Assembly (NCBI GenBank): GCA_030697165.1
Contig: JAUYQQ010000004.1
Location: forward strand, 331,390-395,389
Reading direction: 5' to 3'
DNA: 64,000 bases
From: Acidobacteriota bacterium
GTDB lineage: Bacteria; Acidobacteriota; Vicinamibacteria; Vicinamibacterales; UBA2999
The position numbers were made by a program, and so were the translations under genes. The notes beneath the pieces were generated by a model. That model was not told where the DNA came from, ran no database searches, and worked only from the letters and a program-made list of their open reading frames with translations. Below, piece after piece: positions 11,519 through 56,160 of this stretch (its first letter is position 1; each line of letters opens with the position of its first letter).

Positions 11519-12985
11519 TCATTTGAGGCCGTACTTCTTGGCCAGGTAGCGGAACTGCCGAAAGCTCAGGCCCAGGACATCCGCCGCGCGCGTCTGCACG
11601 CCGCCCGAGCGTTCAAGCGCGCGTTCGAGGTGCGACCGCTCAATGTCCTGGAGGTGGCGCTCGAGGTTGAAGCCCAGGCCATCTTCAGGATGGGCCGCAA
11701 TGTGGCCAGGGCGGGCTGCTGTGGCCTTCCCATCGCGCAAATTCGCCGGCAACGTCGCCAGCTCGACTCGACGCTCCGACTCGAGGGCCACGGACCGTTC
11801 CACGACATTCTCAAGCTCTCGCACGTTGCCCGGCCACGCGTAGGCTCGCAGCGCTGCGATTGCGTCTGCCGAAAAGCCCTCGATGGCCTTGTTCATCTCG
11901 CGCGTGTATTTCCTGAGGAAGTGCTCGGCGATGAGCGGTATGTCATCAACCCGCTCTCGGAGCGCAGGCATCTTGAGCGGAATCACGTTCAGTCGATAGA
12001 ACAAGTCTTCACGGAATTGCCCGTCCCACACCCGCTTGGTCAAGTCACGATTGCTCGCCGCAATCACCCGAATGTCAGCGGGCGCCTCGTCAGTGCCGCC
12101 GACCCGACGAAACCTTCGCTCCTGGAGCACGCGCAGCAACTTCACCTGCATCGGCGGCGTCATCTCACCGATCTCATCCAAGAACACGGTGCCGCCTTCG
12201 GCAACTTCGAACAGGCCCTTCTTGTCACGATCAGCACTGGTGAATGCCCCCCGTACATGGCCAAAGAGCTCGGATTCGAGCAGGGCCTCGGGCATGGCGC
12301 CGCAGTTGACCGCCACGAACGGCTTCCCACCGCGCAGCGACTGCGCATGAAGGGCGCGCGCCACCAGTTCCTTGCCGGTGCCCGACTCGCCCGAGATCAA
12401 CACCGTGCTGTTGGTACGGCAGACCGTCTCGACCAGCCGGAACACCTCGAGCATCACCGGGCTGCGGCCGATGATGCCGGCGAACCCGAGCTCGGCGTTG
12501 GTCTTGCGCAGAACGGTCAGCTCGTGGCCCTGGCGGCGGCTCTTGAGCAAATGGCCGACCTGGAGCGTCACCAGATTCACGTCCTGGAACGGCTTTTCGA
12601 AGAGGTACTTGGCGCCGAGTTTCTCCGCCTCCTTCCATTCGGCCGAGTCCTGGGTCCAATGCGCGGTCATCATCACCACAACCACATCGGGCGCAAGATT
12701 GCGAATGGCCTGGAGCAACTGCACGCCATCGAGCCGGGGCATGCGGATGTCGGTGAGCACGACGTCGATAAACTCCTGCGCCAGCACCTCAAGCGCAGAC
12801 ACGCCGTCTCCCGCCAACAGGACGTCGTACCCAACCTTGGCGAACAGTTGGCGCGTCATCTCGCGCATCGACTGCTCGTCGTCCACGATCAGGATGCGCG
12901 GCTTGTCGGCCCCCTGATCCCTGATCCCCGATCCCTGATCCCTGATCCCCGATCCCTGATTCCTGGTCCCCGATCCCTGGCTCAC
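11519..12985 (-). CDS. pilR: type IV pilus sigma-54 response regulator
   Basis: 488 residues: receiver domain (about 29-150, Asp79), AAA+ domain with GESGTGKE at 199-206 and a C-terminal Fis-type helix-turn-helix. It should activate the pilA sigma-54 promoter nearby. The GTG start overlaps the pilS stop by 4 bp. Two oddities: residues 3-24 are encoded by ten 7-base tandem units that precede the receiver domain, and the sigma-54 contact loop reads GAFTSA (246-251) instead of GAFTGA. If the repeats changed by one unit the frame would be lost. Identity is firm from pilS adjacency and domain order. Confidence 0.93.
   Translation of the reverse strand: MSQGSGTRNQGSGIRDQGSGIRDQGADKPRILIVDDEQSMREMTRQLFAKVGYDVLLAGDGVSALEVLAQEFIDVVLTDIRMPRLDGVQLLQAIRNLAPDVVVVMMTAHWTQDSAEWKEAEKLGAKYLFEKPFQDVNLVTLQVGHLLKSRRQGHELTVLRKTNAELGFAGIIGRSPVMLEVFRLVETVCRTNSTVLISGESGTGKELVARALHAQSLRGGKPFVAVNCGAMPEALLESELFGHVRGAFTSADRDKKGLFEVAEGGTVFLDEIGEMTPPMQVKLLRVLQERRFRRVGGTDEAPADIRVIAASNRDLTKRVWDGQFREDLFYRLNVIPLKMPALRERVDDIPLIAEHFLRKYTREMNKAIEGFSADAIAALRAYAWPGNVRELENVVERSVALESERRVELATLPANLRDGKATAARPGHIAAHPEDGLGFNLERHLQDIERSHLERALERSGGVQTRAADVLGLSFRQFRYLAKKYGLK
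12912..12981. repeat. heptanucleotide tandem repeat inside the 5' end of pilR
   Basis: Ten consecutive 7-base units on the plus strand: CCCTGAT, CCCTGAT, CCCCGAT, CCCTGAT, CCCTGAT, CCCCGAT, CCCTGAT, TCCTGGT, CCCCGAT, CCCTGGC. They follow the pilR GTG codon at once and are translated as repeats of GSGIRDQ. Three units make seven codons; one unit gained or lost shifts the frame. Confidence 0.95.
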
Positions 12986-18877: not shown

Positions 18878-18901
18878 GACTAGCTTTTGATTCCCCCCGA
18901 T

Positions 18902-18987
18902 GTCCGCCTAAAGGCGGACGCTACATCGAACTGTGGCGTCCGGCTTTAGCCGGACCATCCCAATGTGGCGTCCGGCTTTAGCCGGAC
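18902..18987. repeat. REP-like hairpin array (three copies) between pilB and barrel gene
   Basis: Three 18-bp palindromes: GTCCGCCTAAAGGCGGAC at 18902-18919, and GTCCGGCTTTAGCCGGAC at 18938-18955 and 18970-18987. The last two are embedded in a 32-base direct repeat beginning TGTGGCG. The same core with the flank GCCACATT occurs at 28011, 51646, 51680 and 56135, so this is a dispersed family of the REP type. Confidence 0.9.
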
Positions 18988-18993
18988 CACTCC

Positions 18994-27622: not shown

Positions 27623-28276
27623 TTACCGTCGTCTCGCCACCCACGTCGTCATCGACCGTTGGTCGTGGACGACGGTGGTCTTGATGGGGTCGAGCAGGTC
27701 GCCGCCCAGGCGGGCGGTCCAGTCGAGGATGGTATCTGCGTCGACGAGGTAGCGGTTGGAGCCGTCCGGCAAGCGGTAGCGGTTATTACCAAGGGGGCGC
27801 ACCTGGTCGGCCACCCCGATGGTGGACGCCAGCCGTGCGAAGAACAGCCCACCCGGCTTGAGCACCCGCCACAGGGCATGAACCATGGCCGCGAAGTGGG
27901 CATCGTCCCGGGCGAAATGCAGCACGGCGCTGGCAATCACGACATCAGCCGAGGCGTCCTCGAACGAGGTGTCTTCGATGGCCTCGTGGCGGAAGTCCGC
28001 GCCAGCATCGGTCCGGTTGAAGCCGGACGCCACAGTACTTGCCAGGACCCGCACCTTCGCAATGGCCTCGGCGCTGGCGTCGTTGCCGAACACCTCGAAA
28101 CCCTGGCGCAGGAGGTAGACCAGGTTGCGCCCGCCGCCGCAGCCGGCGTCGAACACCCGCATGCCCGGGGCAATGCGGCCGCGCAGCAGCTGGTCGAAGA
28201 CGTAGATGTCGATGTCGCCGAATTCCGTACGTAAGGACGCCGGGTTGAATTTCGCGGTATTGGTCACGAAATTCAA
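27623..28276 (-). CDS. SAM-dependent methyltransferase carrying a translated REP insert
   Basis: 217 residues if read from a TTG at 28276; a GTG at 28267 is also possible. There is no ATG, so the true start is uncertain. Class I fold: motif I VFDAGCGGGRNLVYLL, motif II around NDASAEAI, motif IV VVIASAVLHFARDD and a post-motif VLKPGGLFFARL. The target is unknown. Codons for STVASGFNRTDAG between strand 2 and strand 3 come from a REP-like hairpin (28011-28028), evidently tolerated in a surface loop. Its start region overlaps a 19-bp inverted repeat after rplQ. Confidence 0.8.
   Translation of the reverse strand: MNFVTNTAKFNPASLRTEFGDIDIYVFDQLLRGRIAPGMRVFDAGCGGGRNLVYLLRQGFEVFGNDASAEAIAKVRVLASTVASGFNRTDAGADFRHEAIEDTSFEDASADVVIASAVLHFARDDAHFAAMVHALWRVLKPGGLFFARLASTIGVADQVRPLGNNRYRLPDGSNRYLVDADTILDWTARLGGDLLDPIKTTVVHDQRSMTTWVARRR
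28011..28036. repeat. REP-like hairpin inside methyltransferase coding sequence
   Basis: GTCCGGTTGAAGCCGGAC followed by GCCACAGTA, matching the family core and flank seen at 18938, 51646 and 56135. On the coding strand it is in frame and encodes TVASGFNRT. Confidence 0.85.
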
Positions 28277-28285
28277 CCCGGCGTC
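28236..28285 (-). terminator. 19-bp perfect inverted repeat after rplQ, overlapping next start
   Basis: Arms GACGCCGGGTTGAATTTCG and its exact complement at 28236-28254 and 28267-28285, loop 12 bases. It begins 14 bases after the rplQ stop and is the best candidate for the end of the alpha operon, although no T-run follows. Both possible starts of the methyltransferase lie within it. Confidence 0.6.
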
Positions 28286-35594: not shown

Positions 35595-35663
35595 GTGCTA
35601 ATCGGTGCCTAATCGGTGGCTGTCTAATCGGTGCCCAATCGGTGGCTGTCCGATCGGTGGCTA
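35595..35663. repeat. TAATCGGTG-type tandem repeats between rpsE and rpmD
   Basis: Six units built on (G)TGCCTAATCG or GTGGCTGTCTAATCG, alternating periods of 11 and 15 bases. The last unit supplies the TAG stop of rpsE (35661-35663). The same motif recurs at 44425 and, inverted, at 54141. Confidence 0.85.
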
Positions 35664-50452: not shown

Positions 50453-51655
50453 GTGTCTTCGTCCACCGGGTCGTGTGACAATTGGCGCGTGCTTACGCCG
50501 TCGATCGCGACCGCCGACTCGCCGAGCGCCGCCGCGGAGTGGATCGAGGAGTGGCAGTCCGAGCACGACGGCCGCGCGATCGCCGCGCCCTCGCCGGCGG
50601 ATTGGCCCTTCCGTTACCCGCTGGCGGCCGAACTGCCGGCCGGCCCCGTGGTGATTCGCGCCAACGCCTTTGACGAGGCGTTCGTCAACGAGCAGACCGG
50701 CGGCACCGAGCTCGTCACCACCCAGCGCGCCTACCTCGAGGCTGCCTGGGCGGCCGAACTGGCCCCCCATCCCGGTGGCGCGTGGCTCCTGCTCGTCAGC
50801 ACCCCGGCACCGCATCACTACAGCACCACCGCACTTCTCCCCAGGGCGTTTCGGGTCACCGATGCGGCAGAACGCCTCGCACTATGCGTCCAGGCTCTCG
50901 CAGCCTGGCGGACACCCGCCGCCCTGGTGGCAACGGCGAGCGTCTGTATGGAGGTGAACGACCTCGACGCGGCAGCCCGCGATCTGGACGAGGCAATCAC
51001 CCTGGCGCCAGGGTGGGCGGCGGCACGGTACGAATGCGGCAAGCTCTGGCTCCGGCGCGACGATATGGCCCAGGCCGCCGTGGCCTTCGAGGCCGCGGCG
51101 ACGCTACTGCCGAGCTTCGCGCCGGCCTGGGCGAACCTCGGCGCCACGCTCGGCGAACTGGACCGCCCGGCGGAAGCCCTGACCGCGTTCGAGCGGGCCC
51201 TGGCGCTCGAGCCGGCCAGCCCGCAGGCGCTGAACAACGTCGGGGTCGTCCGCCGCGAACTGGGCAAACTCGCGGAATCGGAGGCGGCGTTCCGGCAAGT
51301 GATTGAACTCACCCCAACGCTGGCCTTTGGCCATTACAATCTCGGGCATACACTGTTTTTGCAGGGCCGGTTCCAGGCCGCGCTCGCGGCCTATGCTGAA
51401 GGCCAGGCCCGCGACCCGGAGAAGAACGCGGTGCAAGCGTCGCGGCTGGCACTGTGCAAGGTGGCGACCGGTGATGCCGAAGGCGCGCTGCGAGACCTGC
51501 GGCGCGCCACCGAGGGTTTGCCGCGCGAGTACCGGCAGCAACTGCTCGGCGAGACGAGCGCGATTTTGTGGGCCCTGGTCACCGAGCAGCCGGGCTTGAG
51601 CGGATGGCAACCGGTGCAGGCCTGGCTCGATGGCGAGTTGCGCAGGTCCGGCTGA
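50453..51655 (+). CDS. tetratricopeptide repeat protein
   Basis: 400 residues from GTG at 50453; a GTG at 50489 (388 residues) is as plausible, and neither has a good ribosome site. The N-terminal ~150 residues are globular and unrecognised. Residues about 170-330 hold TPR units, clearest in AWANLGATLGELDRPAEALT, LNNVGVVRRELGKLAESEAA and GHYNLGHTLFLQGRFQAALA. No signal peptide: probably a cytoplasmic scaffold. Its last codons and stop come from a REP-like hairpin. Divergent from the Rieske gene. Confidence 0.82.
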   Translation: MSSSTGSCDNWRVLTPSIATADSPSAAAEWIEEWQSEHDGRAIAAPSPADWPFRYPLAAELPAGPVVIRANAFDEAFVNEQTGGTELVTTQRAYLEAAWAAELAPHPGGAWLLLVSTPAPHHYSTTALLPRAFRVTDAAERLALCVQALAAWRTPAALVATASVCMEVNDLDAAARDLDEAITLAPGWAAARYECGKLWLRRDDMAQAAVAFEAAATLLPSFAPAWANLGATLGELDRPAEALTAFERALALEPASPQALNNVGVVRRELGKLAESEAAFRQVIELTPTLAFGHYNLGHTLFLQGRFQAALAAYAEGQARDPEKNAVQASRLALCKVATGDAEGALRDLRRATEGLPREYRQQLLGETSAILWALVTEQPGLSGWQPVQAWLDGELRRSG

Positions 51656-51699
51656 AGCCGGACGCCACATTGATGTAGTGTCCGCCTTTTTGGGCGGAC
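51646..51699. repeat. inverted pair of REP-like hairpins after the TPR gene
   Basis: GTCCGGCTGAAGCCGGAC at 51646-51663, then GCCACATTGATGTAGT and a second palindrome GTCCGCCTTTTTGGGCGGAC at 51680-51699. The first supplies the TGA of the TPR gene; the second ends 12 bases before the kinase ATG, next to its GAGGA site. Confidence 0.9.
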
Positions 51700-56078: not shown

Positions 56079-56134
56079 CCTCCGGCTTCTTGACCCGCCG
56101 GAGCCTCGGCGGAGGCGGTTAGCCGGATAGCAAG

Positions 56135-56160
56135 GTCCGCCTAAAGGCGGACGCCACATT
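56135..56160. repeat. REP-like hairpin between propeller and Calx-beta genes
   Basis: GTCCGCCTAAAGGCGGAC (56135-56152) followed by GCCACATT; identical in core to the copy at 18902. Confidence 0.9.

Follow-up and report, generated by a model that had tools for sequence, protein, structure and literature searches.

Can a REP become part of a working enzyme, and by what route would it arrive there? The question is raised by a methyltransferase gene in the window, our term for the whole 64,000-nucleotide stretch that was analysed (G000:C4:331390-395389 of a 5.39-Mb, 23-contig acidobacterial assembly). A preliminary description of the DNA had placed a hairpin in this gene, as a close copy of extragenic hairpins inserted with the frame retained into a surface loop between class I motifs.

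A REP copy within a methyltransferase gene

The REP consensus, GTRGCGTCCGSCTTYAGSCGGACC, comprises a GTRG tag, a 7-bp stem and a TTYA loop (GTRG + GTCCGSC-TTYA-GSCGGAC). At ≤3 mismatches it occurs 282 times in the whole genome, with 0 matches to the reversed control pattern, and six times in the window, where 0.00 copies were expected and 100 dinucleotide shuffles yielded none. The window copies and their setting are as follows.

18901-18988: extragenic cluster of three REPs, at 18901-18924 (minus), 18933-18956 (plus) and 18965-18988 (plus); consensus matches, non-coding in the HMM
27623-28276, minus strand: class I SAM-dependent methyltransferase, 217 aa, with a predicted and uncertain TTG start (Pfam, AF2, Foldseek)
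28001-28039, minus strand: STVASGFNRTDAG, residues 80-92 of the methyltransferase, made up of REP core and flank and including a 33-nt length difference (codon alignment, residue numbering)
28010-28033, minus strand: REP core with GTGG tag and hairpin GTCCGG-CTTCAA-CCGGAC, read as VASGFNRT in phase 0; 1 mismatch to the consensus
51645-51668, minus strand: REP of exact consensus, with mixed coding state across the element (consensus match, HMM)
56134-56157, minus strand: extragenic REP of exact consensus (consensus match, HMM)

Two short tandem repeats also lie in the window, one with a 21-nt unit (CCCTGATCCCTGATCCCCGAT; 12912-12979) and one with a 26-nt unit (CTAATCGGTGCC...; 35598-35649).

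The methyltransferase core, GTGGCGTCCGGCTTCAACCGGACC, is identical to the consensus at 23 of 24 positions. Its single mismatch, a G-to-A change beside the loop, shortens the coding-strand stem from 7 to 6 bp, and its DNA fold energy is -5.8 kcal/mol as against -7.8 to -8.2 in the other window copies; the mismatch and the weaker stem together therefore indicate a slightly worn copy. The bases upstream of REPs are mostly [G/A]AT and here are ACT. The copy is a single unit and not a REPIN, that is, an inverted pair with a short spacer. Its 24-nt core encodes VASGFNRT only (residues 82-89), the remaining five residues of STVASGFNRTDAG being flank. The hairpin originally placed at 28011-28036 is thus present with its bounds moved to 28010-28033, the peptide then reported agrees with our residue numbering, and the presumed kinship with the extragenic hairpins is borne out by the near-identity to a consensus of 282 copies.

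By sequence and distribution this is a GTAG-type family: a 5' GTAG/GTGG tetranucleotide adjoins a short palindrome, and the copies are numerous, dispersed and mainly extragenic (~96 of 123 sampled sites were not in frame in a gene). CGTC, a tag known from Rickettsia RPEs, does come directly after GTRG here (GTRG-CGTC...), although GTRG is the outermost element; that tag and the RAYT link seen in relatives fit the GTAG class, as judged from sequence. REPs of this type were present in 31 of 60 relatives, at 0 to ~600 copies.

The host gene is intact and under constraint

The open reading frame matches Methyltransf_11 at 66.7 bits (cut-off 21.2, E 3e-18), and Methyltransf_11, Methyltransf_25 and Methyltransf_23 all exceed their cut-offs; no NCBIfam cut-off was reached in a search of that collection. 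D43, G45, G47 and D66 are invariant in the alignment, and the protein has the motif I, the acidic residue after beta2 and the Rossmann-like sheet of class I enzymes. The frame is open over its full length with every motif kept, and comparison with six congeners gives a pairwise dN/dS of 0.18-0.22, a value of ~0.2 that implies purifying selection. The preliminary description had allowed that the gene might be a pseudogene; these data speak against decay, and the frame was retained as it had claimed.

An AF2 model of the protein (pLDDT 88.9, pTM 0.86) has helix alphaB at residues 69-84, a turn, and strand beta3 at 95-97, with pLDDT falling to 76 at residues 81-90; Foldseek confirmed the fold, with 2p8j as best match followed by other class I methyltransferases. 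In the model the REP insert is the alphaB-beta3 surface turn, in keeping with the proposed loop between class I motifs. In class I methyltransferases, the alpha-to-beta turns and the cofactor lie at opposite sides of the sheet, and fold topology would therefore place the insert far from the active site.

The gene immediately upstream is rplQ, named here from its sequence. A perfect 19-bp inverted repeat (GACGCCGGGTTGAATTTCG / CGAAATTCAACCCGGCGTC, 12-nt gap, window 28236-28285) sits between the two genes and overlaps the predicted TTG start; both arms are kept in the congener G003 (L010), and a further copy of one arm is present at another place in the window genome (L265).

Alignment with orthologues, the check originally suggested, revealed neither a REP nor REP-like residues at this loop in any of ~35 sequences, so the same residues are not found without the hairpin. 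The three nearest orthologues (G003, G005, G006) are exactly 33 nt shorter in the codon alignment; the unrelated loops of G008 and of the two more distant congeners (G002, G007) are shorter by 7 and 5 residues, and elsewhere in the order the loop is likewise unrelated and mostly 4 residues shorter. How large the gain is thus depends on the comparison: +11 aa relative to the nearest species, +4 to +5 aa relative to most members of the order. An in-frame REP insertion into a functional methyltransferase gene is well supported, and replacement instead of clean insertion is possible because congeners vary in loop length at the site.

In-frame REPs elsewhere in the genome

To place this copy among others, ~120 stretches around REPs were sampled and used to train a phased Markov coding model, a REP being called intragenic where an open frame with coding signal lay on both sides. 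By this measure 27 of ~123 sampled sites in the window genome are in frame inside genes, older intragenic copies being under-counted because the sample favours near-perfect ones. REP insertion into coding sequence with retained frame had been described as rare, which neither this share nor the published intragenic REPs (Di Nocera 2013, PMC3733652) bear out. MurC (520.9 bits, cut-off 335.1) and GlmU (580.2, cut-off 450) reach their NCBIfam equivalog cut-offs with a REP in frame; other REP-bearing families that could be named with confidence are AIRS domains of PurL type, MeaB, HI0933-like oxidoreductase, PfkB/heptose kinase, GT4, HrpB, GNAT and NHL/thioredoxin proteins. The in-frame cases also take in ten Ser/Thr kinases, described below.

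Phase 0 was used in 39 of 43 intragenic units, giving VASGFSRT forward and GPAKAGRH in reverse, and in 19 of 23 by hand count with kinases left out. The WRPALAG and VRLKPDT frames of the REP are likewise open, and stop codons alone do not account for this strong bias. Where VASGFSRT, GPAKAGRH or VRLKPDT turns up in a protein of this group, annotators should read it as mobile DNA and not as a conserved motif.

Of 46 Pkinase matches 39 were aligned, and in ten of these Ser/Thr kinases (L244, L250, L268-L270, L272, L280-L283) a REP or REPIN occupies the beta4-beta5 turn (IYGLEE[...]ALVMELVEG); paralogues that lack an insert have ESNGVT there. When the insert columns, mostly gaps, were left out of the kinase tree, L244, L270 and L283 formed a group with 100% support whose sisters are paralogues lacking the insert; inner support is weak, and the five parsimony changes in insert state are not a firm count of insertions. 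On contig C13, where paralogues lie in tandem, conversion may have passed the insert between them. Kinases of G002 and G008 have comparable inserts. In G005 the frame of one kinase (L284) continues from the REP onward as unrelated sequence, and the catalytic HRDLKP is missing, which suggests recombination at an intragenic REP.

REPINs shared in essential enzymes

MurC, GlmU and PurL belong to enzyme types that are generally essential. Each has one close match in the genome (a second Mur ligase is 37% identical and a weak MurC match), and insert-free orthologues exist for all three. The PurL REPIN (VRLKPDTT...ADVASGFSRT) occurs in the window genome, G005, G003 and G008 (L096, L215, L217, L220) and is absent from G006, G001, G007, G004 and the outgroups; SDVASG repeats enlarge it in G008. 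The GlmU REPIN is common to the window genome and G006. MurC has a REP pair in the window genome and one unit with a stub in G005, and the G008 sequence has what resembles a scar (L116, L201, L202 across species); this series, from pair to partial deletion to scar, reads as if recombination between the arms removed inserts in frame. Single-copy essential genes in which sister species clearly differ in having or lacking an insert bear on how proteins absorb mobile DNA.

In the PurL REPINs, 1 in 16 synonymous sites differs, compared with 0.38-0.42 outside them in the gene (Fisher p of 0.004-0.008 for the three pairs with the window genome and 0.0008 for G005-G003, the pairs not being independent). 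The GlmU REPIN likewise has 1 in 16 against 0.44, while its nonsynonymous differences (4 in 43.7 sites) are not below the rest of the gene. The contrast suggests that what stays constant in GlmU and PurL is the DNA element and not the peptide; for these two genes, resetting to consensus or constraint at the DNA or RNA level fits better than selection on the peptide. A tentative extension, which we hold to be rather doubtful, is that translated REPs evolve in concert, the PurL and GlmU copies being reset time and again to the genome-wide consensus by gene conversion or re-insertion. If so, a kinase family and otherwise unrelated housekeeping enzymes would have one loop peptide in common, set by a mobile-element population and not by protein function. 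Such mutual overwriting by repeat populations inside genes can be tested by setting synonymous change within shared REPINs against that outside them.

Origin of the methyltransferase insert

The window genome has six Y1_Tnp (RAYT-like) genes, none of them (0/6) with a REP within 1.5 kb. In relatives, Y1_Tnp genes of one clade are flanked by inverted REPs in the REPtron layout (G005, L238; G021, L241; G040, L233), so that the GTAG-type arrangement of a RAYT (Y1_Tnp, HuH) between inverted REPs is seen in relatives and not in the window genome. Two of its own Y1_Tnp proteins (L042, L044) are 37-41% identical to those of the REPtrons, and L043 is 31-38% identical. Since no REP lies near its own Y1_Tnp genes, RAYT is a putative agent of insertion in this genome.

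We consider it probable (roughly 0.88) that a GTAG-type REP of a RAYT-associated population inserted into the methyltransferase turn in this species' lineage and was tolerated. A unit from the REP/REPIN population would have entered the alphaB-beta3 turn; a net length change that is a multiple of 3, with a stop-free phase, would have yielded a short flexible protein stretch; and the enzyme would have tolerated it, presumably neutrally, as the turn is at the alpha-to-beta side of its Rossmann sheet and thus lies away from the SAM pocket. The same process would have decorated many genes of the genome: insertions into surface turns in phase 0 would have survived, and selection presumably purged those elsewhere in genes.

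Among other accounts, the least improbable, though unlikely, is that the gene retains the hairpin because it serves at the DNA or RNA level, for example in mRNA stability, pausing or gyrase/IHF-type binding, with the protein merely tolerating it. The low synonymous divergence (~1 in 16 against 0.38-0.44) of the REPINs shared in PurL (window genome, G005, G003, G008) and GlmU (window genome, G006) would suit such a role, but homogenization by other copies accounts for it equally well, the methyltransferase orthologues manage without a hairpin, and this copy has lost its loop-adjacent base pair and folds worse than the extragenic ones. Still less probable is a newly selected property of the methyltransferase or of other decorated proteins. 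The predicted translated REPIN has been retained in PurL through four species, yet in GlmU it is synonymous and not nonsynonymous change that falls below the rest of the gene, and the methyltransferase insert is limited to one species and to a less confident region of the model. The suggestion that a mobile repeat can give new protein sequence thus stands as regards in-frame residues and not as regards any role for them.

That the methyltransferase gene is decaying, with the REP lodged in a pseudogene, seems more improbable again: the insert is lineage-specific and the predicted TTG start overlaps the 19-bp palindrome, but the full-length frame, the complete motifs and dN/dS of ~0.2 argue otherwise, and similar inserts occur in single-copy MurC, GlmU and PurL. 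A chance resemblance of the loop to a REP, for which only its short length speaks, is ruled out by the absence of matches in the shuffles and the reversed genome control. Tolerated insertion of a RAYT-associated REP remains our preferred reading.

Comparison with known systems

Translated GTAG REPs, paired or single, have been described within the open reading frames of varied enzymes, including repair enzymes (Di Nocera 2013, PMC3733652). The likeness lies in tagged palindromes wholly inside reading frames, sometimes twice per gene; the REP sequence and the acidobacterial hosts differ. The groups for which that survey lists GTAG repeats are Proteobacteria, Cyanobacteria, Chloroflexi and PVC bacteria; for Acidobacteria only TIR-flanked transposases are mentioned. 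The REPINs defined in PLoS Genet 2011 (PMC3116915) share the inverted doublets with short spacer and the REP-flanked RAYT gene, here seen in relatives; they were treated as extragenic, whereas ~60-nt REPINs are here predicted to be translated in GlmU, PurL and kinases, and the window methyltransferase copy, unlike a REPIN, is a singlet.

The Rickettsia RPEs, in the portions of PMC3733652 that deal with them, are likewise in-frame palindromic repeats at tolerant sites of unrelated, often essential proteins; their sequence is unrelated, RPE-1 is longer, the shorter ones are CGTC-tagged, and those portions give no RAYT linkage. Enterobacterial intragenic small mobile sequences (2007, PMC2759123) were also proposed to have a role in new peptides; they are described as MITE-like units of 103-168 bp and are not REPs. 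Since intragenic GTAG REPs and RPEs were already described, the phenomenon itself is known. Less familiar, it seems, are low-divergence REPINs shared in essential genes and the reuse of one kinase turn; the open-access literature searched, incomplete in coverage, yielded no account from Acidobacteriota. Concerted evolution of translated REPs would be the newer, and unproven, part.

A probable second repeat family in methyltransferase orthologues

Further inserts, also in frame, were found in the methyltransferases of congeners (L049, L046, L033, L010, L025). The G006 protein has ~27 extra residues before motif I, including GGRYGETSPKLSDPPGASEGG, with a remnant in G008, and in G003, G005, G008, G006 and G002 a second insert separates beta5 from the strand that follows. 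The inserts at both positions look like a different palindromic repeat (GGCGAGACCTCGCCGAAGC...), to which the window genome has 27 matches, many being the two strands of one palindrome. Taken with the REP, two repeat families would therefore have entered three methyltransferase sites within one genus.
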